A stretch of DNA of 64,000 nucleotides, taken from contig NZ_JACVZV010000036.1 in the NCBI RefSeq assembly GCF_014654725.1, positions 1-64,000 on the forward strand. The letters run 5' to 3'. Below are positions 214-17,918 of this stretch, one piece after another (positions within the stretch are counted from its first letter, which is position 1; each line of letters opens with the position of its first letter). A program made the position numbers and the translations under genes. The stretch comes from Vulcanococcus sp. Clear-D1. GTDB lineage: Bacteria; Cyanobacteriota; Cyanobacteriia; PCC-6307; Cyanobiaceae. The notes beneath the pieces were generated by a model. That model had not been told where the DNA came from and did no database searches. It worked only from the letters and a program-made list of their open reading frames with translations.

Positions 214-237
214 CTACCCACCAGCTCTCAGAAGAAC

Positions 238-1390: not shown

Positions 1391-1426
1391 GAAGCTGAAA
1401 TCTATCAATGACAATATTCTACAGGA

Positions 1427-2179
1427 TCAGGTTTTGGTCGTTATGCCGCGCCCTCGTTGAATCGGGGGGGATTCGGAGATGAATGAGTTGCGTGCTAGGT
1501 CTTCGATATTGACATCAGTGTAGAAGATCTGGATGTCTCTACTGTATCGGTCAGCTGTTTTTCTGATAAGCTCGTCACTGTTGAAATACTCGCTTAAGTC
1601 GTCCGTTTTATCCCGGCGTCTGTTTTTCTCTGGGAGTTTACCTAGCGTAGGCAACCCCTCTCTGCGCATCCGACGCCTGAGTGCGGCCCAGTGGGCATCA
1701 ATCTGCTCTAAGCGGCCAATAAACTTTGGCACAAGTCTTTCTCCTGCGCACAGAATCGTACTCTGTGGTAACAAATGAACATCTAGCTGATCATCTGGGC
1801 ATGAACAAACGCAGTCAATAAAGTCTGAGAACCCCATCTGGCGGCGTAAGCCCATTTCCAGCATGGATCTTGTTGGCTCACTATTCTCAACTATTTTGTT
1901 GTTGTATGCAGAAACGAGTCTGTCGAATGGATTGCGAACAAAGCTAAAGCTGAAATGAGTACCACGATGGCGACGTGCTTGCAGTGGGGTTATCAGCTCT
2001 GTTTCTCCATGTGTTGCATCACGCCAGAAACTATCAGCAGTTGTACGAACCCCATCGTCAGCAGGGTTCTTAAGCAGATTACAGAGTGAAGCTTTTATCG
2101 AAGAATTGGCAACCTTCGGTACTCGACCATACATCAATGGCAGATGATGAAATAGAATGAAATGGTGAGTGGTGCTCAT
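1427..2179 (-). CDS. Sulfotransferase family 2 (carbohydrate sulfotransferase-like)
   Basis: The 250-residue product has YGRVPKVANSSIKASL near residue 17, the PAPS 5'-phosphosulfate loop typical of the HNK-1/chondroitin-type Sulfotransfer_2 family. FSFVRNPFDRLVSAYNNK near residue 75 is the 3'-phosphate-binding motif. It belongs to a different branch from the sulfotransferase downstream, so the two probably modify different positions or sugars. The start ATG overlaps the stop of the NeuB-type fusion gene as ATGA, indicating translational coupling. The context (NeuA, NeuB, glycosyltransferases) suggests sulfation of a nonulosonate-containing polysaccharide. No signal peptide is visible, so it should act in the cytoplasm. 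Confidence 0.83.
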   Translation of the reverse strand: MSTTHHFILFHHLPLMYGRVPKVANSSIKASLCNLLKNPADDGVRTTADSFWRDATHGETELITPLQARRHRGTHFSFSFVRNPFDRLVSAYNNKIVENSEPTRSMLEMGLRRQMGFSDFIDCVCSCPDDQLDVHLLPQSTILCAGERLVPKFIGRLEQIDAHWAALRRRMRREGLPTLGKLPEKNRRRDKTDDLSEYFNSDELIRKTADRYSRDIQIFYTDVNIEDLARNSFISESPPIQRGRGITTKT

Positions 2180-4500
2180 GAAGACATCGCCTCCGTTTTC
2201 TGGGTCTCCTGCATGACTGAAGACCCTGAACGTTGTGATCGGCCCTGGGCGGCTTCAAGGCGTTCCAAGGCCAGCCAGGCTCCCTCCCCACTGTTTTTAT
2301 GACCCTGCCAGATTTCAGGTATAAATGACGCTTCTGGGGCCAAATCAGCGAGCATTTGAAAAACCTGTGGCCAGTCAATTTCCCCTTCGCCGATTTGCAG
2401 GCCTTCACCATCCACGCCGCCCGCATCGGCAAGATGCAGATGGGCCGTGAATGGTAGAATTTGCTCCAGAAACTCACGGAACGGCATGTGTAGGTGATTG
2501 CAGGCGAGTTTGGAATGTGAAACATCTAGGCACACTCGGTAGCCTTCGTCCTGGCAGAATTCTCGAATAAACGCCGCATCGACAAAAAGGTTGTGGTAGC
2601 GTTGGCCGCCAAAGTGCCATGGGAATGGAGGCATGGTTTGGGGGATAACCTCTACCTCGTCTAAACCCCTGAGTTGATGAAAACTGTCTTTGAGGTTATC
2701 ACGTAGAGGCTTAATTTCTTTGCCGCTTAGGTGTCTATTTTCAGAAAAACCACCCACATTGGTTACCAGCAGAACTCGTCCTTCACAGCGGAAGTAGCTC
2801 TTCAGCTCAGTTGAAATGTTAATTACGCGTTGAAGCTCGGCGATCGAAGTCTGTCGGTACTCTTCGTTGTTGCTGCACAGATCCAGGGTGTGATCGCCAG
2901 CGAACAGTTCGGGCGCATGAACCACTAGTCCAAGCTCGTTTTGTGGCGCCAGCACGCTAGAAAGATTTACATCAAGATCTTTGTAGCTCAAATGTATTTC
3001 AACCAAGTCTATGTTGCTGGCGTGGCTGAAGGCTTTGATATCGTGGTAGCGAACAGGAACTCCAAAAGGTTGACTGAAGTTATAGGCCCTTGGGCTGGCA
3101 ACTGGGCTTTCGAGGTCGGAGGGGAAAAATGGTTCTCCTGGCTTTTTCTCGATTGGCAGCTTCCGTCCCAATAGGTCATGCAGGCGGTACGGCTGTAGAC
3201 CCTGACCTGGGCTCTTGATTCTCACCATCTCTTCAGTGATCTCAGTGCCTGCTGGGATGCTACAGCTAGCCACAAGGCTTTTCGCCAAGACTTCGCGATT
3301 CATCAGCTCGCCTTGGCTAATAGTACGTTCACCACCAGTGCCCATGGATTCGCGCACGCGACGAATTCCCTTCACCATTGCAGTGAATTCACAAGGCAGC
3401 AAGCTCACCTTGTGATCGTTGCCCTCCATGGTGCGGTCAAGTGTGATGTGCTTTTCAATGACCACTGCGCCAAGGGCAGCAGCACCTATTGGTACCTCGA
3501 TCCCTCTTTCGTGACCTGAATAACCAACCGGCGCGCCAGCTAACTCACGCAGCCGCTCCAAATAACGCAAGTTTACGTCTTTAAATGGTGTGGGATAGGT
3601 AGAATTGCAATGCAGCAATACAAATGCCGCGTCGCAATCTCTCAAATGGCGTATGCCTGCGCGGACTTCTTGTTCAGAGGCCATCCCGGTTGAGGCCAGG
3701 AGAGGCTTTCCGGTTGCAGCCATGCTGCTTAACAGGGCATGGTTTGTAAAATCTGCAGACGCCACCTTGAATCCTGGCACTCCCCATGCCTCCAGTTTCG
3801 CCAGGCTTACCTCATCCCAGGCTGTGCAGAGTGGCACTAGGTCTTTCGATGCAGCATGATCGAAGCAGCGGAACAGTTCCTCATCACTTAGTTGAAATCG
3901 TTCCAGAAGATCTAAGGTGTACTGTGTTCCAAGGTCTGAGCTTATATCGTTGCTGTTACCTGCATTGACATACAGTTGTTTCATGTCGCGCATCTGAAAC
4001 TTTGCGCAATCGGCACCGGCCTTGACTGCTTCGTCGATGAGTTGTATCGCTAGATCTACATTGCCATTATGATTGTTGCCGATCTCGGCAATCACAAAGG
4101 TTGGCTCATCTTCTCCTATTCGTCGATTTCCAAGTAGCAAGCTGCGCTCTCCGGCACGAGCAATGGCCACGATCCGGCCATGTCTGTCGAGTAGGGGCAG
4201 GGCGTTGATCTGATCAGAAACCATTCCCCCAAGCACAGTGCTGGTCGTCCCTTCAGGAGCACTTCGGCATGCCGGATTCATGGCGGCGGTAACCGGCTGA
4301 TTGAGGTCAATTTCGCTGCAGGATTCAATCCAGCGACGAAAATCGCCGTCACTCATCACCCCTAGCAGAATTCCCGACTCAGAGACGACAAAGATAAGAC
4401 GCGTTTGGTTGGCCGTGATTTTGCTTAGGGCGGTGAGGATGCTGTCCTCGGCGAACACAACGAACTGAGTAAAGTTTCTGTCGATATGCACTTTTCTCAT
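2176..4500 (-). CDS. neuB: CBS-NeuB-SAF-TIM barrel fusion: nonulosonate (sialic acid-type) synthase
   Basis: This 774-residue protein has four modules. Residues 1-120 are a CBS-domain pair (GVMSDGDFRRWI and a second repeat). Residues about 129-380 are a NeuB aldolase-type barrel, with FVIAEIGNNHNGN, KFQMRD, the GYSGHERG segment and VIEKHITLDR. Residues about 400-465 are a SAF/antifreeze-like domain (IPAGTEITEEMV). Residues about 475-770 are a second TIM barrel of the xylose-isomerase/AP-endonuclease-2 fold (VCLDVSHSKLACNHL, HLHLADAGGVDGEG). NeuB enzymes condense phosphoenolpyruvate with a hexosamine to form a nine-carbon nonulosonic acid. The actual sugar (Neu, Leg, Pse or Kdn type) cannot be decided. 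The extra barrel may epimerise or isomerise the substrate, which is inference. Confidence 0.88.
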   Translation of the reverse strand: MRKVHIDRNFTQFVVFAEDSILTALSKITANQTRLIFVVSESGILLGVMSDGDFRRWIESCSEIDLNQPVTAAMNPACRSAPEGTTSTVLGGMVSDQINALPLLDRHGRIVAIARAGERSLLLGNRRIGEDEPTFVIAEIGNNHNGNVDLAIQLIDEAVKAGADCAKFQMRDMKQLYVNAGNSNDISSDLGTQYTLDLLERFQLSDEELFRCFDHAASKDLVPLCTAWDEVSLAKLEAWGVPGFKVASADFTNHALLSSMAATGKPLLASTGMASEQEVRAGIRHLRDCDAAFVLLHCNSTYPTPFKDVNLRYLERLRELAGAPVGYSGHERGIEVPIGAAALGAVVIEKHITLDRTMEGNDHKVSLLPCEFTAMVKGIRRVRESMGTGGERTISQGELMNREVLAKSLVASCSIPAGTEITEEMVRIKSPGQGLQPYRLHDLLGRKLPIEKKPGEPFFPSDLESPVASPRAYNFSQPFGVPVRYHDIKAFSHASNIDLVEIHLSYKDLDVNLSSVLAPQNELGLVVHAPELFAGDHTLDLCSNNEEYRQTSIAELQRVINISTELKSYFRCEGRVLLVTNVGGFSENRHLSGKEIKPLRDNLKDSFHQLRGLDEVEVIPQTMPPFPWHFGGQRYHNLFVDAAFIREFCQDEGYRVCLDVSHSKLACNHLHMPFREFLEQILPFTAHLHLADAGGVDGEGLQIGEGEIDWPQVFQMLADLAPEASFIPEIWQGHKNSGEGAWLALERLEAAQGRSQRSGSSVMQETQKTEAMSS

Positions 4501-4540
4501 GGTTTTAGTTTTCTCGTCATGGCTATCGCTCCATCATAGC

Positions 4541-5896
4541 CTATCCATTAAAGCGGGGGCTCAAAAGCAGTCCTAGCCGACGTGCTATCCAGTGATTTCG
4601 TCGTAACGCCACTAGCCGCCTCCTAACATTTCGGTGATCCGGGCGAATCAGTTGCGCCAGTTCCAGACTTGCTGCAGCCTCACCGAACTGCCTAGCCCTT
4701 ATCGCTTTCTCGGCACTGTTGCGAAGCTGATTGAAGCTCATGTTGTGTGAGTTCACGACATAGCCGGGTTGCTCTAGATCGATAGGAGCTGACATACTGC
4801 CTTGTCGTTCTTTCCAGTCTTGTATGAACTCCAGAAGCTTGGCTGGTTGATGTGTCTTGCCGTATCCCACCCACTCAAGCCAATAAGGATTGGGCCACTC
4901 CAGCTGTTCTTCTAGGCTATCGAGGTCCGTCAGCTTGTCAAAATAGTGACACACGCTCGAGCCGACAAATACATGGCCTCCTGACCTTGGCAAATTCCCG
5001 AAATCCGCCATCACCACAGGCTTGCAACCATAATCGAGTGCATCGAACAGGGCCGTGGATGACACTGTGGCCATCAAACGTGCTTCTTGCAACACTTCTG
5101 GTAAAGGTCGATAGTCGAGCTGAAGGTTCGTTGGCGGGTGTCCGATGGTCTCCTGAATTGTTTGACTGATGTGCTGATCGTTTCTATGGAAGGTGGCTTC
5201 GTTTGGCGCAATTCTAGGTTTGATTAGTACCTCCCAGTTAGGGGAGCGTCTGGCCAATTCAGCAAGAATGCGGACTAGCTTTTGTCGATCCTTTTGACGA
5301 GATGGAATTACGACCTGCTCGGCAAATACCAGCATCTTTTTACGCTTGTCTGCTGGTAGCAATGGTGTCTTCGTGGCTATATTTCTCTGCATACCAGTTG
5401 TCAGGAATGGCTGAGTCTCGAATGGAGTGTCAGCTAGCATTCGTTTTATTGCTGATGCGTCCCGCGGTCCATTCAGGCAAATGAGGTCGTAGCCAAGCCG
5501 CCAACTGATCGCCTCTTCAAATCCACTGAGCACAATCCCATTAAAGCCGCAAAATAGCATCGGCTTGTAGGAGCCAGGTATTATGCTTACAGCATGGCGA
5601 AAATACGCCAGTTTGCTACCTGTTAAGAATACCCCAATGGCATCAAATCTCATCAGTAATCGGTGGCTCAATAGTTGGCTCAGCCCTAGTTGCCACAGCT
5701 TGCCTAGTGCCCTGGCCCGCTCTAATACGCCATCTGGAGTCCCCTCGCGAGGAATGGCGTTGACTGTGATATTGACTGCTGGTCCATCCTCTGGAAATTG
5801 GGCTATAGCCTCACACGCCAGTAACTGACTGTCGCTGTCGCCCACCAGTAAAAGCTCCAGTGGCGTATTGGTTTTGTTTGGTGCCTCTGTCGTCAC
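4541..5896 (-). CDS. Putative glycosyltransferase, third of three tandem paralogues (DUF6716-like)
   Basis: I start this gene at a GTG whose last bases overlap the upstream stop as GTGA, giving 451 residues. A longer frame runs to 5986 but would overlap the upstream gene by 94 bases. The protein opens with a Rossmann-like strand (LELLLVGDSDSQLLACEAI). It has a GYDLICLNGPRD segment, a middle WEVLIKPRIAP strand, and a C-terminal ATVSSTALFDALDYGCKPVV block. That last block resembles the sugar-nucleotide half of GT-B enzymes. The same blocks recur in the next two genes. About 60 C-terminal residues look like a TPR-type helical pair. I recall similar picocyanobacterial proteins as DUF6716 putative glycosyltransferases. 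No function has been shown to my knowledge. Confidence 0.75.
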   Translation of the reverse strand: MTTEAPNKTNTPLELLLVGDSDSQLLACEAIAQFPEDGPAVNITVNAIPREGTPDGVLERARALGKLWQLGLSQLLSHRLLMRFDAIGVFLTGSKLAYFRHAVSIIPGSYKPMLFCGFNGIVLSGFEEAISWRLGYDLICLNGPRDASAIKRMLADTPFETQPFLTTGMQRNIATKTPLLPADKRKKMLVFAEQVVIPSRQKDRQKLVRILAELARRSPNWEVLIKPRIAPNEATFHRNDQHISQTIQETIGHPPTNLQLDYRPLPEVLQEARLMATVSSTALFDALDYGCKPVVMADFGNLPRSGGHVFVGSSVCHYFDKLTDLDSLEEQLEWPNPYWLEWVGYGKTHQPAKLLEFIQDWKERQGSMSAPIDLEQPGYVVNSHNMSFNQLRNSAEKAIRARQFGEAAASLELAQLIRPDHRNVRRRLVALRRNHWIARRLGLLLSPRFNG

Positions 5897-6972
5897 TGGG
5901 AAGCCTCCGGTTTCGCCCTGGTCCTCAGGGCCTTCACAAGCTGTGAGGCACCATCGTGGACGCCCCAGCCCATCTTCTCCAGCCAATTTGAGTTCACTAT
6001 TGGCATTTCTAATAGGTCATCAAGCGCTGTGATGCTGTCTAGACGGTGCATCACACCAGAGCTGGAGAATGGAACAGACCCATGATCGGTGCGGATGCCA
6101 TGGTCAGCCATCACAACCACGGCGCGCCCCCACGCCATCGCGGTGTAGATCCACGGGGAACTGATGGTGATGCATGCACTACATCGTCCCAACACTATCG
6201 GTAGGTTTCCAGAGGCACCGAAGCTGATATTTGTGGGGAGCTCGGCGAGTACGCGCTGGTCGGCGTTGAGGGGAAGTTGTTTTTCGGACTGCGTGTGATC
6301 GGTTTGAATCAATACTTGCCAGTGTGGAGACGCGCTTGCCTTTTGGCCGAGCAACCTAAGCATCCTCTCTGCGGCTCCTTTCAGTTTTGGCAGACCCTTT
6401 TGCGCTAAGACAACCAGTGTATGTGGAGAATCTGGTTTACCTACACCGACGAGTCCTCCGGTCTCTGGTGCCTCGGGCATAAACCAGAACCCGATTGCGA
6501 CTGTCGGTACCGGATTGGGCCAGCGATGCATCAGGTCATGAGCCTCTTCTAGCTGTCTTTCACCATGCAAGCAGAGCAGGTCGCAACACATGCGTGGCAG
6601 CAAATCCTCGATGAGTGTGTCACCAGCCAACGGAAATACCGGACCGCTGAACACAGGCGCTGGTCGCTGAGCATTTAGTTGACAGATCTGTCGATAGTTC
6701 GTCACAAATGTCTCAACGTTGCTAGCTCGTATGAAAACTCCGATAGCCGTGGCCTTGAGAATCAACGATGAGAGGAGCAGCTCGTTTATTGAGCAGTTCA
6801 ATTGTGCCACTCTGCCATTCCCTGCTGGATTCTCAGGAAGCGGTGAAACCAGACTCGAGATTCTTTCTGTTGTCACTACCAGACAATCCAAATGTTCTTG
6901 GGCCAGTTCATTGGCTAGTAGTGTGCAGGCATAGGCACCTAGATTAGAGTCGGCAAGTAGAATTATGCTCAT
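5893..6972 (-). CDS. Putative glycosyltransferase, second of three tandem paralogues (DUF6716-like)
   Basis: The 359-residue protein begins MSIILLADSNLGAYACTLL and keeps the block order of its neighbours: AIGVFIRASNVETF, CCDLLCLHGERQ, WQVLIQTDH, then ACITISSPWIYTAMAWGRAV and NSNWLEKMGWG. It is the shortest of the three and lacks the C-terminal helical extension. The ATG overlaps the upstream stop as ATGA and its own stop overlaps the next GTG, so all three copies are translationally coupled. The blocks fit a GT-B fold acting on a nucleotide sugar, probably CMP-activated given the adjacent neuA-like gene. The family call comes from pattern, not from a search. Confidence 0.73.
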   Translation of the reverse strand: MSIILLADSNLGAYACTLLANELAQEHLDCLVVTTERISSLVSPLPENPAGNGRVAQLNCSINELLLSSLILKATAIGVFIRASNVETFVTNYRQICQLNAQRPAPVFSGPVFPLAGDTLIEDLLPRMCCDLLCLHGERQLEEAHDLMHRWPNPVPTVAIGFWFMPEAPETGGLVGVGKPDSPHTLVVLAQKGLPKLKGAAERMLRLLGQKASASPHWQVLIQTDHTQSEKQLPLNADQRVLAELPTNISFGASGNLPIVLGRCSACITISSPWIYTAMAWGRAVVVMADHGIRTDHGSVPFSSSGVMHRLDSITALDDLLEMPIVNSNWLEKMGWGVHDGASQLVKALRTRAKPEASQ

Positions 6973-8264
6973 CGGCCTCGTACTACCTTCTCAATCCAAC
7001 CCATGCCAATAATGAAATCGCGGAGTTGTCTAATCAAGCTGCGGGTGCGGTTTCGCTTGCGCTGAGCTGAGCGTACGCCGCCACTTGCAAGCATACTTAT
7101 ACCACCGTTAGCAAGCGCAAACTCCTGCCAATCCCGGCTACCCCAGCCCGCTAGCTCGATTGCATTGTCATTCAGTTCGTTGTCCCGAGAGGTTAGTGAG
7201 GTGCGCAACGCAGTCAAAAATTGATTCTTCCCGTTTGGTTGATAGCCATGGTGCTCTAGCCAGGTTGAATCATGTCGTATTGAAAAGGGATCAGAGCAGA
7301 TTGACTCGAATTCCGCGAGCGCCCCAGAGGCGATGAAATAGTGATTGCCTAGAGTTTCATTGAGTCCGAGATCTGTCACGATTCTTGTGCTGATGCCCAT
7401 TGCCATGGCCTCAAGCGCTGCGGTTGACGATATAGTAATTGCGCAGCTGCACTTTCTTAGCAGATGAGCCGCCGGCTTGAAGCTGATAGTGAGGTTTTCT
7501 GTTTTCTTTGAAAGTCTTTTTATCCCTCGTGTCATCTCGCCGTGATGGCGATGTAATGTTCGTTCAAGGCCCGATATTCGAGGTTTGAAAATGATTTGAT
7601 GTTCGGGCCAGTGATTGGCTAGTCTTTCGAGTTGCTGGCATAAATACCGCCTTTGGAGAGGATTCGAGGGCACTGAAGGCTGCTCAAAAAACACTAGAGA
7701 ACCCCTTTCTATTGATTGTGTTCGAGGATGAAGGTTCCACAGTATCGGGAGTCCAGTTATAACTGCATTGCTGCTATCTAAATTGAGTCCTTGGCATCCC
7801 TTGGCATAGGTCTCGAAGTCGTTCGGGGTGTTAAGGCACAGCAAGTCCACGCCCGCGCGATCCAGCATGCCCTCCAGCTGGTGGCGAAAGAGGATTCCTG
7901 GGTAAGCGCTTACGAGCAAGGGGCGTTTGGGATGTTCGTTCCATAGCCTTTTCAATAGTAACAACGTATCTCGACTTCGCTTGCCATCTAGAGCTAGAAT
8001 GACTGCGTCGCTACTATCTAGTTTGTTTTCAAGTAGCATCTGCCGCCCATTCCAAGGGTGGCGTGTAATTTTTGTCTTGGGATCAACCCTCTGAATTTCT
8101 ACTCGCTGGCGACGGGAAATTGTTCGACCGTCCACATCCAGTAAAATTAAGTACGTATCAGCCCCGGCATTGCGGCATGCCGCGAGCATGCTCATACCTG
8201 TTTTCCCAAAGGAATCGAAACATGCCAACGCAATGATCCTGCGACCGTTGAGGGATGCGCTCAT
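6969..8264 (-). CDS. Putative glycosyltransferase, first of three tandem paralogues (DUF6716-like)
   Basis: The 431-residue product starts IIALACFDSFGKTGMSML. It shares with the next two genes the blocks AVILALDGKRSRDTLL, GVDLLCLNTPNDF, HQIIFKPRISG, CAITISSTAALEAMAMG and STWLEHHGYQ. The C-terminus is basic (QRKRNRTRSL) with a short amphipathic tail, which could bring it to the membrane. It follows the CMP-nonulosonate synthetase with an ATGA overlap. The most likely role is transfer of a sugar onto a growing surface polysaccharide. The substrate is unknown. Confidence 0.75.
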   Translation of the reverse strand: MSASLNGRRIIALACFDSFGKTGMSMLAACRNAGADTYLILLDVDGRTISRRQRVEIQRVDPKTKITRHPWNGRQMLLENKLDSSDAVILALDGKRSRDTLLLLKRLWNEHPKRPLLVSAYPGILFRHQLEGMLDRAGVDLLCLNTPNDFETYAKGCQGLNLDSSNAVITGLPILWNLHPRTQSIERGSLVFFEQPSVPSNPLQRRYLCQQLERLANHWPEHQIIFKPRISGLERTLHRHHGEMTRGIKRLSKKTENLTISFKPAAHLLRKCSCAITISSTAALEAMAMGISTRIVTDLGLNETLGNHYFIASGALAEFESICSDPFSIRHDSTWLEHHGYQPNGKNQFLTALRTSLTSRDNELNDNAIELAGWGSRDWQEFALANGGISMLASGGVRSAQRKRNRTRSLIRQLRDFIIGMGWIEKVVRGR

Positions 8265-8947
8265 GTTGGTTGGTCAAATAACGCTGCCGCTTGATCGCAA
8301 ATTGTCAGATCGTATGGCGTATCGATCTCAGGGTGCCAACCATCGATAGGTACTGGTAGCCGTGGAGCAACAAAGCGATGCCCCGCTTCGACGAAGGGCT
8401 CGGTGCGAATCGCGTAAATAGCGCCTGTCTCCAGCCAGCAGGGGGGAAGGTCTTGACGCCTTGGGCGAGGGGCATCGGCGTTGTGATTAACCCCGATGCC
8501 CCAGCCCTCTTCGCTAGCACTCCATAGAAATCCATGCCATGGTGAGGCTGAGAAGGCCATAGCTGCACCGGATTCCTGAAGCCGCTCCACCACCAGGTCG
8601 ATCTCACGCCCCCGGGTGAACGGTGATGTGCACTGCAGAAATACAAAAACCTCTGGTCTTAAGCCTTCGGAGGCCAGCACGTCGAGGGCATGGATCAGAG
8701 CTGATTCAGAACTGGCAGTGTCGCCTGCTATGTCGGGTGGTCGTTGAATAGTACGTGCCCCCTCAGCTTGTGCCAGCGCCAGTAGTTCGGGTGAATCACT
8801 GCTTACATAAGTGCGCTGTATTTTCTCGGAAGACTGTGCAGCTTGAATGGTTCTTGCTAGGAGCGGGATATTTCCAACTGTTCGCAGGTTTTTGTTTGGA
8901 ATACCCTTGGATCCGCCGCGTGCCGGAATCAATGAAATGATTGACAT
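8261..8947 (-). CDS. neuA: Acylneuraminate (nonulosonate) cytidylyltransferase
   Basis: The 228-residue protein opens with ISLIPARGGSKGIPNKNLR, the nucleotide-binding motif of CMP-sialic acid synthetases. It continues with YVSSDSPELLALAQAEGA, VFLQCTSPFTRG and DGWHPEIDTPYDLTICDQA near the C-terminus. It activates a nonulosonic acid with CTP to CMP-sugar. It is the first gene of the minus-strand operon and precedes three putative glycosyltransferases and the NeuB-type synthase, so activation, transfer and synthesis are encoded together. Sialic, legionaminic, pseudaminic and Kdn enzymes share these motifs, so the exact sugar is open. Kdo cytidylyltransferase is less likely given the NeuB partner. 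Confidence 0.88.
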   Translation of the reverse strand: MSIISLIPARGGSKGIPNKNLRTVGNIPLLARTIQAAQSSEKIQRTYVSSDSPELLALAQAEGARTIQRPPDIAGDTASSESALIHALDVLASEGLRPEVFVFLQCTSPFTRGREIDLVVERLQESGAAMAFSASPWHGFLWSASEEGWGIGVNHNADAPRPRRQDLPPCWLETGAIYAIRTEPFVEAGHRFVAPRLPVPIDGWHPEIDTPYDLTICDQAAALFDQPT

Positions 8948-9134
8948 GGCTCTATACGATTGAACCTACGGCGAATGAGAACCTCGGTCATCTTAGGGTG
9001 GCTCGGCCCCTGCGTATGGCTATACCTTTTTACTGTAGCGGACCAGCCTCTTTGTGTCAACGGTTGCTTCTGGGCTTCATCCTCTCAAGTAATTTTGCGC
9101 ATGTAGGCTTTGGTTGGTACAGGGAGATTGGGCT
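8948..9134. promoter_or_regulatory. Divergent promoter region between the nonulosonate operon and kpsC
   Basis: This 187-base gap separates the divergent neuA-like and kpsC genes, so promoters for both transcription units should lie here. The sequence has short A+T-rich patches (around 9020 to 9040 and 9085 to 9100) but no box I can assign with confidence. A Shine-Dalgarno-like AGGGAG at 9121-9126 precedes the GTG chosen for kpsC. Confidence 0.45.
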
Positions 9135-11264
9135 GTGTCGGTGCTGAGTCAGGCCCAGTTAGTTGGATGCCCGGATCGTCTGCTTTTAACCCACTCCACG
9201 ATTGCGTCACTATTGGCCCCCGCCAAGGTGGTTGCGGGTCGTCGTCGGTGTGTGAGGGAGCCAATCCACGCTCTTGTGGCCTGGGGCCGCCGACCCAGTG
9301 GTCGTTTCGCTGAAGTCCTGAGCCAAAGACGCTCCCTGCCGCTATGGCGCCTTGAGGACGCTTTTCTGCGTTCCATGGATGCAGGTTCCGGAATCCCACC
9401 TTTAGGGATCGTCCTCGACGACTTGGGTATTCATTACGATGCAACTCGGATTAGTCGACTGGAGCTCTTGATATCAGCCGGCGTCAGTGATGAACAACGC
9501 CAGCGAGCTGAGAGCTTAGCCAGTAGCTGGCGTCAGCATCGCCTGAGCAAGACCAACGCCTCTGCTGAATCACCTCCTCCGGACACCCCGTTTGTCCTGG
9601 TTGTCGATCAAGTAGCCGACGACGCTTCGATCCGCTTTGGCTTCGCGGATGCATCTGCCTTTCCCCGGATGCTGGACGCTGCACTTGCTGAATTTCCTAA
9701 TCACACAGTGGTGGTTAAGATCCATCCAGATGTTGTGAATGGGCGCCGGCATGGCCACTTTAATGCCATCTATTTGGAGCATCCTCGGGTAAGACTCTGT
9801 GTAGATGGAGGGCACCCGGCGGCGCTTTTGGAGGCCGCTGATGCGGTGTATGTTGTTACCTCACAGATGGGATTTGAGGCTCTGCTTTGGCAGCGACCTG
9901 TGCGCACATTCGGGATGCCGTTCTATGCCGGGTGGGGCCTAACTGTGGATGACCTCGAATCACAATGTATTGGACGCCGTGATGCTAAGCCTGATTTGCC
10001 AGCTTTAGTCCATTCCTGTCTTGTCTCCTATTCCCGTTATTTGCATCCTGTCACCAACCAAGTCTGCACACCTGAGCAGCTCATCGAGCACATCGTGCTT
10101 CAGCGTAATTGTAGAGCGCGTCTTCCACGCAATCTGGAGGTGTTCGGTACTGCACCTTGGAAGCGCCGAGCTGCACGCCAATATCTATTGGCTCTCAAGC
10201 CTGCGAAGCTACACTTTCGGCCTCTGGATGCCGCACCCGGAAGACAATCTGATCTTCGCCAGTTGGTTTGGGGACATCGCATTGGCCGGGGTCTACGGCG
10301 GGCTATGGCAGGAGGGATCGTACCTGAACCCATTCGAGTGGAGGATGGCTTTCTCCGTTCCGTTGGACAAGGCTGGGTTCTTCGCTGGGTGCCGCCAGTG
10401 TCTTGGGTGTTTGACGAGCAGGGTATTTATTATGACGCCTCAAAGTCAAGTGACTTGGAATGTTTTCTGGCCAGCCATCGCTTCACGGTTGAGGAACGTC
10501 AGCGGGCTGCCGCCTTACGCCGGCATTTGGTTACCTTGGGCCTCACAAAATACAATCTTAATGCACCGGCCTGGCAGCGGCCTGCCGCATTGCTTAATCG
10601 GCCTGTGCTGTTAGTGGCCGGCCAAGTCGAGTCTGATCTCTCGATCCGCTATGGCACACCCCCAGATGCCTGCATACGTAGTAATTTAGAATTGCTTCAG
10701 GCTGTGCGGTCTCTTTATCCAAAAGCTTTTTTGATCTACAAGCCTCACCCCGACGTGGTTGCTGGTCGTAGACGTCCAGGGAAAGGGGAAGGCCTGACCC
10801 ATTTACATTGCGATCTGGTGTTGCCCGATGCTCCTATTGATCAATTAATTTCTGCAGTTGATGAGGTACATGTTCGCACCTCCGGAACCGGGTTTGAGGC
10901 CATACTTCGCGGCGTCCCTGTGCATACTTGGGGTATGCCGTTCTACGCCGGATGGGGTCTTACCTCGGATCAATTCATCTGCACGCGCAGGGGGCGCTCC
11001 TTAAGCCTCGACGAGTTGGTTTATGGCGCTCTCATTTACTATCCTCGCTACTTTAGTCAGCGTTCCGGGTGTTTTATCACAGCTGAACAGGCTGTTGAAG
11101 AACTGGCAATGCAGCGCCGTCATCGTCACCGTTGGCCAGGCTCTCGGTCGATTCTGGCGTCAACCCTCTTCGCGACTTCCCCTCGTGTGCAATTTGCGGG
11201 TGCCCAGCTTGCAGCGCGGTTCAAGGATGCATTGGATGGCATCCTTCCTGACTCTCTAGTTTAA
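9135..11264 (+). CDS. kpsC: Capsule polysaccharide Kdo transferase KpsC (duplicated glycosyltransferase)
   Basis: The product is about 709 residues, close to E. coli KpsC, and contains two related halves. Each half has an FLRS...G...VDxGIYYDA-type segment (LDDLGIHYDATR and FDEQGIYYDASK), a KxHPDVVxGRR motif (VVKIHPDVVNGRR and IYKPHPDVVAGRR), and a near-identical FGMPFYAGWGLT/WGMPFYAGWGLT block followed by R-rich residues. KpsC proteins build the short poly-Kdo linker on a lyso-phospholipid that anchors group 2 type capsules. I chose the GTG at 9135 because AGGGAG lies 8 bases upstream. A TTG at 9114 is the other option. The gene is followed after 26 bases by the KpsS-like fusion. Confidence 0.9.
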   Translation: MSVLSQAQLVGCPDRLLLTHSTIASLLAPAKVVAGRRRCVREPIHALVAWGRRPSGRFAEVLSQRRSLPLWRLEDAFLRSMDAGSGIPPLGIVLDDLGIHYDATRISRLELLISAGVSDEQRQRAESLASSWRQHRLSKTNASAESPPPDTPFVLVVDQVADDASIRFGFADASAFPRMLDAALAEFPNHTVVVKIHPDVVNGRRHGHFNAIYLEHPRVRLCVDGGHPAALLEAADAVYVVTSQMGFEALLWQRPVRTFGMPFYAGWGLTVDDLESQCIGRRDAKPDLPALVHSCLVSYSRYLHPVTNQVCTPEQLIEHIVLQRNCRARLPRNLEVFGTAPWKRRAARQYLLALKPAKLHFRPLDAAPGRQSDLRQLVWGHRIGRGLRRAMAGGIVPEPIRVEDGFLRSVGQGWVLRWVPPVSWVFDEQGIYYDASKSSDLECFLASHRFTVEERQRAAALRRHLVTLGLTKYNLNAPAWQRPAALLNRPVLLVAGQVESDLSIRYGTPPDACIRSNLELLQAVRSLYPKAFLIYKPHPDVVAGRRRPGKGEGLTHLHCDLVLPDAPIDQLISAVDEVHVRTSGTGFEAILRGVPVHTWGMPFYAGWGLTSDQFICTRRGRSLSLDELVYGALIYYPRYFSQRSGCFITAEQAVEELAMQRRHRHRWPGSRSILASTLFATSPRVQFAGAQLAARFKDALDGILPDSLV

Positions 11265-11290
11265 CCTTATTGGACTAGAAGGAGATTATC

Positions 11291-13333
11291 TTGAATTCCA
11301 GTCGGCATCCAATGACCCCATCCGTCCAAGTCGAAATCAAGGGACCTGTCCTGCTTCTCATGGGTCCAATTGGTCTTTTCTTTTCTCGCTTTTATAACTA
11401 CTTGACGCGTTGTGGTATCCCAGTGCGTAAAGTCGAATTCCCCTTGCATGAATTTGGCTTTCCTCGTCACGCCCGTGTGCGTTTCTCTGGAGATATGGAT
11501 GAGTGGCGACCCTTTTTGCGTGATTTGCTTCTCAAGCATGAGATACGTCATGTTTTTATGTATGGTGACTTCATTATTCCTCACCGCATTGCCATCGAGG
11601 AATCGCGGGCTGTTGGTGTTGAAGCCTGGGTGTTTGAGCTTGGCTATATACGACCAAATTACGTTACTTTGGAGCGTGATCGCGTCAACGCGCGTTCACA
11701 CCTTAACCAATCTGCCGGCTTTTATCATTCTCTTCCTCTGGTCAGTAGTCTTCCGTCATGCCGTTTAGATTCAGGTTTGCGGTGGCGAAAGATATGGAAA
11801 GTGCCTACATTTATTCAGCATGCTTTCACGCGATACCGGATTATAGAGGGTGACCATAAGTTGCAGCCGTCTCCACGCTTCCTTTGGTACCAGTTGCGTG
11901 GCAGTTGGCTCTATTGGCTCTATCGGCTTCGGGAAAGGCGAATCAAGGATAGACTTCTCGAGAGCTATTCGTTTTTTCTGGCTATTCTCCAGGTCTCAAG
12001 TGACAGCCAGATTCAGATGGGCTCCCGTTATCGAGGCATGCATGACTTTATCGAAGAGGTGATTTGTTCTTTCGCTGCTAATGCTCACGCTTCTGATCAT
12101 CTGGCATTTAAGCATCACCCGCGGGACAGAGGTTACAACAACTATTCTTCGCTCATCTCTCTTTTGGCTCGCCGTTATGGTATTTCCGGCCGCGTGCATT
12201 ACTTCCATGATGGTCATCTGAGTCGTTTCTTGCGCGTCTGCCGTGGTGTAGTTACTGTTAACAGTACCGTGGGTCTCCAGTCTCTCTACCATGCTGTTCC
12301 CACAAAGGTTATGGGCCACTCTTTCTATAACCTACCCGGCCTAACTGACCAGCAACCTCTGCACCAATTCTGGGCTTCTCCCCAGTCTAGTGATCGTGCA
12401 CTTTTCTACCGCTTTTACTCCCACTTGATCACCACGACACAGGTTAATGGCAACTTTGATGGTGCATTCCCGTTCCGCAGTACATTTCCCATTGCAGCTG
12501 ATGCGAACCGCTTTACCCTCCCTTCTGCCTGTTCAACCGATTTAACTTGGGATAGCCGCATCCTTACAACACTAGCTGTAATTCCCAGAATCGTATCCAG
12601 GCTTTGCTGGATTCTTTGTTCGCTGTCGATTTATAGCCTACAGCTGTTACTCCTTTCACTCGGGTCTCGTAGATTCGCTTCTTGGATGCTGTCTATCGCA
12701 TCGGCAGCTGCGCTGAGAGCCCTTGGTATCAAAGTTGTTGTTGATGACAGTCATTCCAGTGAGCAGGAAGGTATTCCCCTTGTTCATATCTGGAACCATG
12801 CAAGTCCGATTGATGTCTTGGTCGTGCAGGGAGTATTGAGGATTCCTAGCATCACCACGGCCAACCTACATTTAAGCCATCTTCTGCCCTGGTTTGCTAA
12901 GTCGGCTGCAAATGCGGGACATACTTTGATGGATCATCGTGATAGAGCATCCCGCATCGCAGCACTCTACTCAGCATCTCGCACTCTTGCTGAGAGTGGC
13001 CAAATTATTATTGCTCCTAATGGCTCTCTGGTTACTCCGATCGAAGAGAGAGTGTCGGCCAGTGCTTTGCTCCTAGCGCGCCGTCACGGTGCTTTGATTG
13101 TACCTTGGACGTTTGTGGTGGAGGGACTTACCAACCTTGCCCGCCTCAACTACCGGCCCCTTCGGCTTGTTTTGTCACGCCTAAGTGCACCTTTGGGATT
13201 CATTTATTGTCGTAGAGGACGGTCTAAGGACTTGCTCTTGCCGGAAGGTATCTGCGATGCTCGACAGTTCAAGATCTCCGTGCAGTCTTATTATGCTCAG
13301 CAAGCCGATCCTAGTACCAAAGAAATGTTGTGA
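11291..13333 (+). CDS. kpsS: KpsS-like Kdo transferase fused to a PlsC-type acyltransferase domain
   Basis: The 680-residue protein starts at a TTG with a perfect AAGGAG (11279-11284) six bases upstream. Residues 1 to about 400 resemble KpsS: GPVLLLMGPIGLFFSRF, YGDFIIPHRIAIEESR, WVFELGYIRPNYVTLERD, FKHHPRDRGYNN and VVTVNSTVGLQS. After a hydrophobic stretch (about 435-475), residues about 485-650 resemble a glycerolipid acyltransferase. This part has IWNHASPIDVLV with the NHx4D pair H503 and D508, and IIIAPNGSLV where PlsC enzymes have a PEGT-type motif. It then has GALIVPWTFV. KpsS adds the first Kdo to lyso-phosphatidylglycerol, so a fused acyltransferase suggests processing of the lipid anchor. 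The 3' end overlaps the convergent ketosynthase gene by 37 bases. Confidence 0.85.
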   Translation: MNSSRHPMTPSVQVEIKGPVLLLMGPIGLFFSRFYNYLTRCGIPVRKVEFPLHEFGFPRHARVRFSGDMDEWRPFLRDLLLKHEIRHVFMYGDFIIPHRIAIEESRAVGVEAWVFELGYIRPNYVTLERDRVNARSHLNQSAGFYHSLPLVSSLPSCRLDSGLRWRKIWKVPTFIQHAFTRYRIIEGDHKLQPSPRFLWYQLRGSWLYWLYRLRERRIKDRLLESYSFFLAILQVSSDSQIQMGSRYRGMHDFIEEVICSFAANAHASDHLAFKHHPRDRGYNNYSSLISLLARRYGISGRVHYFHDGHLSRFLRVCRGVVTVNSTVGLQSLYHAVPTKVMGHSFYNLPGLTDQQPLHQFWASPQSSDRALFYRFYSHLITTTQVNGNFDGAFPFRSTFPIAADANRFTLPSACSTDLTWDSRILTTLAVIPRIVSRLCWILCSLSIYSLQLLLLSLGSRRFASWMLSIASAAALRALGIKVVVDDSHSSEQEGIPLVHIWNHASPIDVLVVQGVLRIPSITTANLHLSHLLPWFAKSAANAGHTLMDHRDRASRIAALYSASRTLAESGQIIIAPNGSLVTPIEERVSASALLLARRHGALIVPWTFVVEGLTNLARLNYRPLRLVLSRLSAPLGFIYCRRGRSKDLLLPEGICDARQFKISVQSYYAQQADPSTKEML

Positions 13334-14574
13334 CCACCGAAGCCAAAGGCGTTCTTCAGAGCAAATCGTTGACCGTTATCGCCAGTGCTTGAATTGCCAT
13401 CAATCGCAACATTCTGTTGTGCTACGTTCAGTCTCACCTCAGGATCTATTCTCTCGGCGTTAATACTGGCTGGTATTTTCCCTTCTCTTAAAGCCTGAAT
13501 CGCGAGGATTGTTTCTACAGCACCTGCCGCGCCAAGTAGGTGACCGAGCTGGCTCTTTGGAGCAGTAACTGGCAGGCTATCTAAAGCTGGTCCCAGTGCT
13601 CGGTGGAGTGCACGCGCCTCTGCAAGATCTCCCAATCGAGTCCCTGTGGCATGACCTTGGATAAAGCTGAGATCTTTTGCGCTAACCTCAGCCCTCTCCA
13701 ATGCATCGTTTATAGCTCGACTTGCCTGGACACCATCGGGATCTGGCGCCACCATTTGGTACCCATCACAACTGCTTCCGCAAGACAGCAGCCACCCCAA
13801 GGGCTTTTCTTTGTAAGCTAAATCTCGTTCACGTTTAAGTACTAGTACGCCTGCTCCTTCCGAGAGCACAAAGCCATCGCGATCTTTGCAATAAGGCCTC
13901 GAAGCTTGTTCGGGTGTTTCGTTTCGAGTGGATAGTGCCCGCATGGCCGAAAACCCCACTAATCCCAGTCGATTGACCGGAGCTTCACACCCTCCAGCAA
14001 TCACCACATCGGCACGGTCGTCGTCAAGCAGCCACTGAGCAAGGAGTAAGGCTTCTGCTCCAGAAGCGCAAGCTGATACCGGCGTATGGCAACCGCCGTG
14101 GATCCCCAGCTCAATCGCAATCTGCCCGGCAGCAGCGTTTGGGATCATCATCGGCACTGTTAAGGGGGTCACTCTGCTCGGACCTGCATCATTTAGGTTC
14201 GTGTGTTGACGCTCTAAGGTTGACAGGCCGCCGATGCCGGTACCGATTACCACAGCTATTCGACTACGATCAACGTTGTTGAGGTAGTTTCTTGCTTGGC
14301 CCCATGCCTCACGAGCTGCGAGCACCGCCAGTTGTGTAGCTCGATCAAGACGTCGTTGAAGCAGTGGCTCAAGCAAATTTTCTCCACTATCGCTTGGATA
14401 CCTGTGCACTCTCCCCGCAATTCGGGTAGGAAGATCATTGGCCCAAGACTCCCCAATCGCCCGAATCCCACATTGTCCATTGACCAATGCGATCCACGTT
14501 TCCTGAGCTGTAGCCCCAAGAGGCGTCAATGCACCCCAGCCGATAACTGCTAGACGATTAGTTGGCTTAGTCAT
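13297..14574 (-). CDS. Beta-ketoacyl-ACP synthase (FabF/KAS II type), island copy
   Basis: The 425-residue protein has the complete Cys-His-His triad of elongating ketosynthases: C169 in VSACASGAEA, H308 in QGHATGTRLGD and H345 in KSQLGHLLGAAGA. It ends with the family FGFGGHN motif. I start at the ATG at 14574, which overlaps the stop of the acyl carrier protein gene by eight bases. The longer frame adds residues that no FabF has. The enzyme condenses malonyl-ACP with acyl-ACP. Its coupling to its own ACP and to an OlsB-like acyltransferase suggests a dedicated acyl chain, not housekeeping fatty acid synthesis. The general fabF is expected elsewhere in the genome. Confidence 0.87.
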   Translation of the reverse strand: MTKPTNRLAVIGWGALTPLGATAQETWIALVNGQCGIRAIGESWANDLPTRIAGRVHRYPSDSGENLLEPLLQRRLDRATQLAVLAAREAWGQARNYLNNVDRSRIAVVIGTGIGGLSTLERQHTNLNDAGPSRVTPLTVPMMIPNAAAGQIAIELGIHGGCHTPVSACASGAEALLLAQWLLDDDRADVVIAGGCEAPVNRLGLVGFSAMRALSTRNETPEQASRPYCKDRDGFVLSEGAGVLVLKRERDLAYKEKPLGWLLSCGSSCDGYQMVAPDPDGVQASRAINDALERAEVSAKDLSFIQGHATGTRLGDLAEARALHRALGPALDSLPVTAPKSQLGHLLGAAGAVETILAIQALREGKIPASINAERIDPEVRLNVAQQNVAIDGNSSTGDNGQRFALKNAFGFGGHNISLVLGSAC

Positions 14575-14911
14575 CCAGAGAAGTATGGGAACTGAGATAC
14601 ATCTCAATATCTTCAACTGTTTTGAACCTTAGCAAGTCTTCTTCTGGAATCCTGGTGTGCAGGTGCTCATCTGCTTCGATTAGGATTTCATAAAATCCTA
14701 GTGAGTCAATGCCAATATCCTCTAATAGCCTTGATTCCGGCCTTATCAGGCTCGGTTCAGCGCCGGAGACTCTCGCTACGATTTCAACGATTTGATGATA
14801 TAGCTCTGAATCGATCTCTTTTTCGCTTATATCTGATTGCCGATGGAGGCTTGTGGGTGTTTTGCTCCCCCTGCCTTCGCAACCCGGCTCCCGACGTGGA
14901 ACTTCATCCAT
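14567..14911 (-). CDS. Dedicated acyl carrier protein
   Basis: The fold matches an acyl carrier protein: an acidic helix (ELYHQIVEIVARVSG), the phosphopantetheine site DIGIDSLGF with serine near residue 70, and a C-terminal helix pair ending VEDIEMYLSS. The ATG at 14911 gives 114 residues with an unusual N-terminal extension of about 30. No good internal start is visible, so the true N-terminus is uncertain. The gene lies between the OlsB-like acyltransferase gene (27 bases upstream) and the ketosynthase (overlapping). It is unlikely to be the housekeeping AcpP because of the extended N-terminus and this context. Confidence 0.85.
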   Translation of the reverse strand: MDEVPRREPGCEGRGSKTPTSLHRQSDISEKEIDSELYHQIVEIVARVSGAEPSLIRPESRLLEDIGIDSLGFYEILIEADEHLHTRIPEEDLLRFKTVEDIEMYLSSHTSLDD

Positions 14912-14938
14912 CTGGCCTTGCCTACTTATTTTTTTATT

Positions 14939-15967
14939 CTAGCATTGGCCTGCCCCAGTATCCAGGCCTCGGTACCATTCGAACTTCTTGTACACGGCAT
15001 GGTGCTTAAAGCCCGTGAAGTGCTGCAAGCGAGTTGTCGGGATTCGCGTCAGATCTGCCGACATCAAGATTTCCGTGATTTGATTGAAGTCAAGCGCTAG
15101 CGATAGATTCTCTACCCTTGCCCCCATCAAATTGATATACTGACGCAGGAGAATGGGTAGTCTGAAGTGTGAATCTAGTTTTACCTGAATCTGCTTTTCT
15201 AGATCTTGTATTGTGCTGGTGTATTCTAATTCATTGCTATATCTTATTCCAGTGTGCGGATGGCGAGGCTGCGGCCGCGATTTGTTGTTCTCGGCAAAGG
15301 GTGGACGAATAAGTCTGCTTAGAAAAGAGTTGTTCACGGCGTCGCTGTAAGCGAAATGGTTGTATGAGACAAGTCCGTGGATTGAAGTGTATCCTGAGCT
15401 GAGTGCTACCTGAAGGCCGCCGCGAAATAGGCACATCAGTGTGTGAGGTAAGCGTTGAAAGCGCGGCGCTAGAGCTACTCGGCCGATTTCCAGATTGTTT
15501 CCGCGTTTGGTCAGCTTCGCCTTGATTCCGGGGTACACGTGTTCTAGGTACGACTGATGGCTTGTAGGGATAAATCTGGTTCCATCCTGCTGTCGCTCCG
15601 GCTGTTGGGGGATAAACTGAAGTCGAGCACATCCGGCAATCTCTCCCGAGGACCTCTCCACTAACAGGAAATGATCGTAGTATGCGTCTCGGCTATCTAA
15701 GTCGTGGCTTCGCCCTGAACCAGAGAGTTGCTGGCGATAGGTCAGTTCCCGAAGAATCCCCACCGCCTCCTCAAACTTTTTGAAGCGATTGCCGGGAACT
15801 AGGTAGAGGTCTAGCCCATGCGAGGTAAACAGGCCGTAATCCGCCAGGTACCGGTTGAGTTCGGTGGACAGAGCCTGCGGGACGGCGATCGACCGACCCC
15901 TTTCTTCGTTGGCCTTCACGGCTTTGACGCGCTGTGACCAAAGACTAACGTGGGGCCTATGGCTCAT
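14939..15967 (-). CDS. GNAT-fold N-acyltransferase, OlsB/COG3176-like
   Basis: The 342-residue protein has DHFLLVERSSGEIAGCARLQ and NLEIGRVALAPRFQRL, which correspond to the core strands of acyl-ACP-dependent GNAT acyltransferases such as OlsB. Its end (LPILLRQYINLMGARV followed by LALDFNQITEILMSADL) matches the PPLIKAYLRLGA...DFN...L pattern of that family. OlsB-type enzymes acylate the alpha-amino group of an amino acid using acyl-ACP, and the next gene encodes an ACP. PEP-CTERM-associated acyltransferases are a related alternative. The ATG at 15967 leaves only 35 bases to the divergent export gene, so the true start may lie further in. Confidence 0.75.
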   Translation of the reverse strand: MSHRPHVSLWSQRVKAVKANEERGRSIAVPQALSTELNRYLADYGLFTSHGLDLYLVPGNRFKKFEEAVGILRELTYRQQLSGSGRSHDLDSRDAYYDHFLLVERSSGEIAGCARLQFIPQQPERQQDGTRFIPTSHQSYLEHVYPGIKAKLTKRGNNLEIGRVALAPRFQRLPHTLMCLFRGGLQVALSSGYTSIHGLVSYNHFAYSDAVNNSFLSRLIRPPFAENNKSRPQPRHPHTGIRYSNELEYTSTIQDLEKQIQVKLDSHFRLPILLRQYINLMGARVENLSLALDFNQITEILMSADLTRIPTTRLQHFTGFKHHAVYKKFEWYRGLDTGAGQC

Positions 15968-16002
15968 CCGGGCTCTAGCCCTCCTGCCTGCGTTTTTCAG
16001 TC

Positions 16003-17181
16003 ATGCCACAGGTCCGTTGTCTGTCTTACTGTCTCGCGATGGCCTTCCTGTCAGCGCCGGCTCTTCCCCTTGGAGCTGTTGCTCAAGAGCCTGCGTTGGG
16101 ACAATCACCGGTCTCACTCACCCACGAGCCCGGATCGCCTGAAAGGAGTCCTTCTTTTCCTGCTTCAACCTCTGGTGCTCAGACGTCCCCTGGTCGTACC
16201 TTTCGCTACCGGCTGGGTCCTGGCGATCGCTTGCGCATGTCGGTGTTTAAGGTCGAGGGCTACGCAGCCGATGTAGAAGTACTCAGCGACGGTACCATTA
16301 GCCTTCCACGACTCAATTCTGTTTCTGTAGCAGGTCTTACTCTTGATGATGCTCAGCGTCGGATCAGCCAGTTGTACACAATTTACCTGCGCAGACCGTT
16401 AGTCTATCTAGATCTACTGGTGCCTCGCCCGGTTCGTGTAACGGTGGTAGGCGAAGTTCAGAAGCCTGGCTTCTATAGTATTTCCCAGGGTTCTCGTGAG
16501 TCCAGCCTGGGTACCGTGGCCGCGGCCCAAACCAGTGTTGATAGCTCTGGCTGGCCAACTCTCGTTGATGCGATTCAGCGAGCTGGCGGCATTACTGGCA
16601 CGGCCGATCTTTCGAGAGTGCGGCTTGTTCGGTCGTCAAATCCATCGCTCTTAAAACGTCAAGTCTATAATTATGATTTTCTTTCGACTCTTATGGGTAT
16701 GGGGTCTTCGCCAAACCCTTTGATCCAAGATGGTGACACTATTGAGGTGGCCAAGATTGAAGGTGTGATCCCAAGCGACGTGCTTATACGGACAGGAAAG
16801 TCGAACCTTTCTGCTGATGCTATAGCAGTTACTGTGGTAGGCGAAGTTAACGCGCCGGGCTTGAAGCAGATCAGGCTTAATAGTTCCTTGACTGATGCGG
16901 TGATGGCTGCTGGTGACCTTAATCAGTTGCGTGCTGATCCTAATTTTATTCGACTTTTGCGTATGCAGGGTGATGGTAGTGTCGTTTCTCTTCGGCTCAG
17001 CTTGGATCCTGCAGCACCGCTGGGCTCGCGTAATAACCCTGTTCTTCAAAATGGTGACGTTATTGTTGTCGCGCGAAACGGATGGACATCCCTGAATCAG
17101 CGTCTTGTCCAGGCGGTTGAGCCCCTTGGTCCTTTGTTAAATGCTGCATCTCTCTATAACATTCTCACAAAGGGTCCGTGA
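16003..17181 (+). CDS. Polysaccharide export outer-membrane protein (Wza-like, SLBB domains)
   Basis: The 392-residue protein begins with a signal peptide (CLSYCLAMAFLSAPALPL then AVAQ). The polysaccharide-export domain follows (YRLGPGDRLRMSVFKVEGY, DGTISLPRLNSVSVAGLTL), then two SLBB repeats (VTVVGEVQKPGFYSIS and VTVVGEVNAPGLKQI). Such proteins form the outer-membrane exit for capsular or extracellular polysaccharides. It is the last gene of the island before core genes and is divergent from the OlsB-like gene. The N-terminus lacks a clear lipobox cysteine, unlike enterobacterial Wza. The partner co-polymerase or ABC transporter is not in this window. Confidence 0.9.
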   Translation: MPQVRCLSYCLAMAFLSAPALPLGAVAQEPALGQSPVSLTHEPGSPERSPSFPASTSGAQTSPGRTFRYRLGPGDRLRMSVFKVEGYAADVEVLSDGTISLPRLNSVSVAGLTLDDAQRRISQLYTIYLRRPLVYLDLLVPRPVRVTVVGEVQKPGFYSISQGSRESSLGTVAAAQTSVDSSGWPTLVDAIQRAGGITGTADLSRVRLVRSSNPSLLKRQVYNYDFLSTLMGMGSSPNPLIQDGDTIEVAKIEGVIPSDVLIRTGKSNLSADAIAVTVVGEVNAPGLKQIRLNSSLTDAVMAAGDLNQLRADPNFIRLLRMQGDGSVVSLRLSLDPAAPLGSRNNPVLQNGDVIVVARNGWTSLNQRLVQAVEPLGPLLNAASLYNILTKGP

Positions 17182-17483
17182 TTGCATTTTTCTCCATCTT
17201 TCTTCCTGACCCTTTTCTATTAGCTAACGGTTCTCGTCGGTTTCGGTCTGGCGATTCGGTGTATCAGGCATGCTGTTAGATAGTGCCTGGGTTCTGTCTG
17301 TGTTACTGCTTCCTTCGCCTTGTTCGCTAAATTGTACTTTTAGCCCCATAGTGCTCTTCTGGGTTGCTTGGTGTGTCTCGCTTATTCGGTGAGACTTGAT
17401 TGTTGGCTTCATGTTTCTTATTTCTTTTACTCCGTTGCTCGGTCCGATGATCCGCTAGCAAGGTGTTCTCGCAGGGAGCTAGC
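17182..17483. other. A+T-rich border stretch between island and core genes
   Basis: No supported gene lies in these 300 bases. The base composition stays like that of the island up to about 17.45 kb and then rises sharply at rlmH. I see no tRNA, integrase or clear terminator here. It looks like degenerate spacer at the right border of the island. Confidence 0.5.
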
Positions 17484-17918
17484 TTGATCAATCCCTCCCG
17501 CATTCGCATCCTGGCGGTGGGCAAGGTGCGCAAGGACTGGGTGCTCGAAGGCATTGCCACCTACCTCAAGCGGCTGCCAGGCCTGCAGGTGCTCGAGCTG
17601 CGCGATGCCGGCAAAGAACGGGAGGCCGCGGCGATCCTGGAGGCCTTGCGGCCCGATGAGCAGCTGGTGGTGCTGGCGGAGGAGGGGCAGACCTTCGATT
17701 CGCCGGCCTTTGCCCAACGCCTGGAGGGCTCTGGCTCAGAACGCCTGGCGTTGGTGATTGGTGGAGCGGAAGGCATCGATCCCGCCCTGAAGGCCAAGGC
17801 CCGTTGGAAGCTCAGCCTCTCGCCGATGACCTTCCCCCATGAGCTGGCGCGGCTGCTGTTGCTCGAGCAGCTCTACCGCGCCCTCACGATTCAGCAGGGC
17901 GGGCCTTATCACAAGTGA
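17484..17918 (+). CDS. rlmH: 23S rRNA (pseudouridine1915-N3)-methyltransferase RlmH
   Basis: This SPOUT-class methyltransferase reads [15 protein letters not shown] at the N-terminus. It carries the SAM-binding knot [19 protein letters not shown], then [24 protein letters not shown], and ends GGPYHK as in the family. It methylates pseudouridine 1915 in helix 69 of 23S rRNA. The TTG at 17484 has GGGAG six bases upstream and gives 144 residues. A GTG at 17463 would add seven. It is the first core gene right of the island and converges with purB. Confidence 0.92.

Follow-up and report, generated by a model that had tools for sequence, protein, structure and literature searches.

In the capsule locus of Vulcanococcus sp. 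Clear-D1, a protein related to the β-Kdo transferase KpsS continues, in one open frame, into a PlsC-type acyltransferase domain. This fusion is embedded in a conserved neighbourhood, a capsule-lipid cassette, which is what is new here. The genes of the locus may well make a dedicated lipid, acylated and probably amino-acid-based, as the substrate from which KpsS initiates the capsule; this reading is held with slightly less than even confidence. The locus lies at the beginning of the window (the whole 64,000-nucleotide stretch analysed) and comprises the following features.

2176-4500, minus strand: NeuB-type nonulosonate synthase with CBS, SAF and AP_endonuc_2 domains.
4541-8264, minus strand: three DUF6716 putative glycosyltransferases (PF20471).
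8261-8947, minus strand: CMP-sugar synthetase, PseF-like, of the nonulosonate type (TIGR03584, E 4e-28, under cut-off).
9114-11264, plus strand: KpsC with two modules for Kdo transfer, each containing QxxxD (PF05159 in four stretches, E 1.8e-74).
11291-13333, plus strand: KpsS-PlsC fusion, 680 aa, TTG start (open frame, Pfam, 17 further loci).
11330-12490, plus strand: KpsS β-Kdo transferase half of the fusion, residues 14-400 (PF05159, NF050054, invariant residues).
12578-13300, plus strand: PlsC/LPLAT half of the fusion, residues 430-670 (PF01553, motif table, dN/dS, alignment with canonical PlsC).
13297-14616, minus strand: FabF-type ketosynthase with Cys-His-containing active-site motifs.
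14567-14911, minus strand: dedicated acyl carrier protein (ACP) with a DSL serine (PF00550, E 1.5e-10).
14939-15967, minus strand: GNAT N-acyltransferase, a relative of the OlsF C-terminal half (PF13444, E 4e-11).
16003-17181, plus strand: OPX outer-membrane polysaccharide export protein of the Wza/KpsD type (Poly_export, E 1.7e-19; SLBB).

The fusion frame runs for 680 codons with zero internal stops. A Shine-Dalgarno-like AAGGAG is found shortly 5' of its TTG start, which lies 27 bases beyond the end of the KpsC frame, and a promoter and terminator scan returned nothing above chance level. The same frame occurs in 17 further loci, at 44-71% identity, and both Pfam families (Capsule_synth and PF01553) are matched by all 15 fusion members scanned. 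Purifying selection acts on both halves (omega <0.22), with a dN/dS of 0.06-0.22 in the acyltransferase half as against 0.03-0.11 in the KpsS half. Because of these further loci, the consistent Pfam matches and the low dN/dS, the fusion is regarded as real, and neither as a chance frame nor as an assembly error. The first-pass annotation had described one continuous frame joining a KpsS-like half to an acyltransferase domain with an NHx4D motif. The frame is indeed open, without a stop between the halves, the two Pfam families match, N502-H503 and D508 are intact, and the coordinates, H503, D508 and APNGSLV had all been given correctly. PDB sequence searches with the fusion and with its acyltransferase half retrieved zero credible relatives.

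Judged by its sequence, the first half of the fusion is a KpsS-type β-Kdo transferase. Capsule_synth (PF05159) covers residues 88-389 (E 5.8e-54), and the NCBIfam KpsS model NF050054 covers residues 20-389 (E 8e-86, model positions 15-387 of 390) with a score of 289 bits, under the 600-bit equivalog cut-off. QVSSD (Q234-D238), E116 and HHPR (275-278; H275/H276) are invariant in 15 members. They resemble the QXXXD, Glu and His that form the catalytic set of KpsC and WbbB (PMC10148158), the roles of E116 and of the histidines being assigned through motif resemblance only. KpsC, KpsS and OPX are all encoded in the locus of the window; the genome's only KpsM homologue, 28% identical, is located on another contig and gives no confident assignment of the ABC transporter. 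Both KdsA and KdsB are found in the genome, so that CMP-Kdo can be made. Cyanobacterial LPS is, however, reported to be devoid of Kdo (PMC4515613).

The second half begins with hydrophobic helices, followed by the NHx4D motif (502-508), a DHR motif II and a P-N-G-S-L-V-T motif III (576-582). PF01553 (Acyltransferase) matches residues 493-606 (E 3.7e-7) with 30.5 bits, against a curated cut-off of 23 bits. NHx4D is invariant among the fusion members, with the sole exception of a decayed copy in locus L015. Aligned with a single canonical PlsC, from L038, motif II of the window (GHTLMDHRDR) corresponds to GHIPVDRKDR, whereas FPEGTRTRDG is the counterpart of a motif III that reads P-[N/S]-G-S-L-x-T in all members. 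The fusion half is therefore not filed as PlsC proper, since PEGTR is absent, and the lack of its E and R in every member fits an acceptor other than lysophosphatidate. The APNGSLV form of this motif had been pointed out in the first annotation, together with a possibly altered substrate; the deviation proves to be a conserved family trait, and it fits an altered acceptor. An AlphaFold model of the acyltransferase half, computed from an alignment of just 6 admissible sequences, has a mean pLDDT of 43, and a fold search with this low-confidence model gave no meaningful match.

In two loci the acyltransferase part departs from this organization. In L015 (8244-10127, minus strand), the PlsC half is decayed, the catalytic His is gone and motif II is deleted; KpsS is still 56% identical, and GNAT, ACP and ketosynthase are unusually diverged. 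L031, from genome G303 only, carries a stand-alone, PlsC-like second copy of 266 aa (8756-9556, minus strand) that displays the same NHx4D and PNGSL motifs and is located directly downstream of the fusion, between it and the ketosynthase gene.

By sequence relationship, the neighbouring GNAT belongs to the ornithine/glycine-lipid N-acyltransferase family. The protein of the window matches positions 303-568 of the OlsF model NF052615 (E 7e-14), and this N-acyltransferase half of OlsF is matched in 15 of 15 members (best E 5e-16). The score is far under the cut-off for full-length OlsF because the O-acyltransferase half is absent: the GNAT is a separate 342-aa gene, and the O-acyltransferase domain that precedes it in bifunctional OlsF was not found N-terminal to it. 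The best GNAT matches in Pseudomonadota lie within frames of about 580-660 aa, and the four tested are OlsF-type by profile. An alignment of these OlsF-type frames with the cyanobacterial GNATs reveals a common core of invariant residues. Few admissible sequences were available for an AlphaFold model of the GNAT, which is of low confidence; its top fold matches are almost wholly GNAT structures, although the best is weak (E 0.0015). A PDB sequence search with the GNAT gave zero credible relatives, FeeM (2G0B) being among the chains unmatched.

Every one of the 17 other loci read has the GNAT next to the fusion. Across the phylum, it occurs in 10 of 367 cyanobacterial genomes, all of which are KpsS-PlsC genomes; in genome G053, too, it lies beside the fusion (L014). 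A Fisher test of GNAT against fusion (10/0/0/357) yields p about 1e-19, a value that overstates the association because the genomes are related. L012 is the only locus without ketosynthase and ACP nearby; it keeps the fusion and the GNAT. L015 retains GNAT, ACP and ketosynthase despite its decayed PlsC half. The ketosynthase gene overlaps the fusion gene tail to tail at their 3' ends; being on the opposite strand, ketosynthase, ACP and GNAT are not co-transcribed with the fusion.

Upstream lies a sugar module formed by the NeuB-type, PseF-like and three DUF6716 genes. The NeuB-type frame (774 aa) combines CBS, NeuB, SAF and xylose-isomerase-like (AP_endonuc_2) domains and is 70-76% identical in 12 related loci. 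The three successive DUF6716 proteins differ in size, are 30% alike among themselves and adjoin the PseF-like gene, and are candidate nonulosonate transferases. At the end of the locus, two sulfotransferase-family genes (563-2179, minus strand) suggest a sulfated polymer; in the stretches read, only the second has relatives, in L030 and L034. In L006 and L010 the contig ends within the sugar module. L012 and L015 do not have it in the stretch read, and in these two transporter-like genes, judged from the start of their sequences only, follow the locus. Since the GNAT is kept where the sugar module is missing, it goes with KpsC and KpsS-PlsC and not with the sugar genes. The GC content is 49-55% over positions 1-17500, which hold the capsule locus, and 62-69% beyond about 17.5 kb, as though the locus had been acquired from another source or were held at a different composition.

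The distribution of the fusion was surveyed in two phyla, Cyanobacteria and Pseudomonadota. The KpsS model finds matches in 11 of 373 cyanobacterial genomes, all from one family (Cyanobium and probable marine Synechococcus). Every one of these 11 KpsS sequences lies within a frame of 675-739 aa, and the same 11 genomes carry the acyltransferase domain; the fusion-bearing records that carry names belong to Cyanobium and to related metagenome-assembled cyanobacteria. In Pseudomonadota, 59 of 398 genomes match the fusion profile, and zero matches reach into the acyltransferase half. Hence the fusion is fixed in this one family of cyanobacteria, and the Pseudomonadota sample is without it. Searching for other KpsS proteins with this C-terminal domain, which the first-pass annotation had proposed, led to the 17 further loci, likewise all of one family, and the positives hence do not represent independent events. 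Four long Pseudomonadota frames around KpsS were rejected as possible fusions, as they reflect N-terminal read-through and are devoid of the acyltransferase motif. Weak PlsC-domain matches elsewhere in the cyanobacterial phylum were also discarded (G101 and G144, frames of just 259 and 295 aa); that of G101 is a canonical PlsC with PEGTR.

In aminolipid synthesis, a GNAT performs N-acylation and an LPLAT performs O-acylation; OlsA and SalA carry PF01553 and motifs shared with PlsC, while the N-terminus of OlsF belongs to a different Pfam family (PMC11631085). With a GNAT and a fused PF01553 half, the locus therefore holds candidates for both acylation steps. In the proposed scheme, the ketosynthase and the ACP would provide a dedicated acyl chain, probably 3-hydroxyacyl. 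The OlsF-type GNAT would transfer this chain onto the amino group of an amino acid or amine, yielding a lyso-aminolipid to which the PlsC half would add a second acyl chain. The KpsS half would then attach the first β-Kdo to the same lipid, for KpsC to extend. The fusion would thus be a bifunctional membrane-associated enzyme, helping to make the lipid terminus of a capsule of the ABC type (group 2-like) and then priming it, and a coupling of linker synthesis to lipid making, as the first annotation had it, is plausible. On the economical reading, what the acyltransferases produce is also the Kdo acceptor, and the head group of such an aminolipid must offer a hydroxyl to accept Kdo. The sequences themselves show the fusion with its intact motifs, its conservation and selection, and its adjacency to and co-occurrence with the GNAT; the substrates of the enzymes are predicted, and we infer which lipid is made, in what order the steps run and that Kdo is attached to it. 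Taken as a whole, a Kdo-primed capsule anchored on a purpose-built amino-acid lipid and not on (lyso)-PG, with O-acylation and Kdo-priming united in one polypeptide, is put forward tentatively, with a little less confidence than the dedicated lipid itself.

The main rival is a (lyso)-PG anchor re-acylated by the fused domain. KpsS would here act on (lyso)-PG, the PlsC half would re-acylate lyso-PG or add a special ACP-borne chain, and the GNAT would make a separate product. (Lyso)-PG is the acceptor on which the known E. coli KpsS acts (PMC10148158, PMC7694667), lysophospholipids are commonly acylated by PF01553 enzymes, and the window's genome encodes two other PF01553 proteins that can serve general lipid synthesis, freeing the fused one for a special role. 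Such a glycerophospholipid anchor leaves the exclusive link to the OlsF-type GNAT unexplained, however, and motif III departs from PEGTR; it is considered unlikely, though a serious contender. Re-acylation of the lipid anchor had already been raised in the first annotation, whose interpretation is partly borne out but made no use of the neighbouring genes. The OlsF-type GNAT next door, in most loci with an ACP and a ketosynthase of its own, speaks for an amino-acid lipid rather than for simple re-acylation of lyso-PG.

The aminolipid model has observations against it: L015, where GNAT, ACP and ketosynthase outlast the PlsC half, L012, with no ACP or ketosynthase nearby, and the opposite strands. 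The strand divergence of ketosynthase, ACP and GNAT from KpsC and KpsS would suit two pathways that are linked yet chemically distinct, one for a free surface or membrane aminolipid (made by GNAT, ACP, ketosynthase and PlsC half) and one for a Kdo-primed capsule, whose genes are kept together since both act at the cell surface. Known aminolipids are mostly free membrane lipids (PMC11631085), yet the O-acyltransferase is covalently fused to KpsS in all members, which argues for a shared substrate or site, and separate pathways appear improbable. The decay of L015, without catalytic His and motif II, and the altered motif III of all members could also signify that the PlsC-like half is a non-enzymatic membrane- or lipid-binding module holding KpsS at the membrane. 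The invariance of NHx4D in all other members, the omega of 0.06-0.22 and the retention of the same motifs in the extra stand-alone copy of L031 argue against this, and a purely binding role is very improbable. Finally, a NeuB-type synthase and a PseF-like cytidylyltransferase in the same locus could mean that the target of the GNAT is a sugar of the capsule repeat, either an amino sugar or a nonulosonic acid, instead of a lipid head group; the GNAT is nevertheless kept in L012 and L015, with no sugar module in the stretch read, and its family homology is to lipid N-acyltransferases, so that sugar acylation would come as a considerable surprise.

The group 2 capsule terminus is defined as (lyso)-PG plus Kdo (PMC10148158). 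A 2015 survey of the phylum noted a confined occurrence of KpsS/KpsC, KpsF and KpsU in cyanobacteria; it proposed that these bacteria lack the poly-Kdo linker, or else that another mechanism brings Kdo to the phospholipid (PMC4594306). A defined set of marine and freshwater picocyanobacteria now displays a Kdo system that looks intact and is joined to a lipid-making enzyme; this suggests for their capsules an attachment to a custom-made lipid rather than to an ordinary phospholipid. What the cyanobacterial capsule hangs from thereby becomes testable, and the locus offers an entry to how any KpsS obtains its lipid. There is a real chance that the anchor is of a new class; if true, capsules would gain a further class of lipid terminus, and OlsF-type acyltransferases a cellular role that is new for them. 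In the literature searched, which left most subscription journals outside, neither a KpsS-acyltransferase fusion nor an aminolipid capsule anchor was found.

Compared with known systems, the locus resembles the E. coli group 2 capsule in its full-length KpsS half with QXXXD, Glu and His, in the two-module KpsC directly upstream of it, and in its OPX export gene. KpsC is the founding member of family GT107. In contrast to E. coli, KpsS bears a C-terminal acyltransferase and the locus includes lipid-making genes. As in the OlsB/OlsA, OlsF and GlsB/GlsA systems, a GNAT of the OlsF C-terminal type and an LPLAT-type O-acyltransferase occur in one locus, the latter sharing PF01553 with OlsA. Unlike in OlsF, the O-acyltransferase is fused to KpsS and not to the GNAT, and it is not of the OlsF N-terminal type; unlike in all three systems, ACP and ketosynthase accompany the GNAT in most loci. 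PF01553, NHx4D and the DHR-like motif II are shared with PlsC, from which the fused domain differs by P-[N/S]-G-S-L-x-T in place of PEGTR and by its fusion to a glycosyltransferase. A more tentative parallel is offered by the FeeM-type N-acyl amino acid synthases, GNATs that use acyl-ACP, with an ACP nearby; the GNAT of the window, in contrast, has OlsF as its closest profile.
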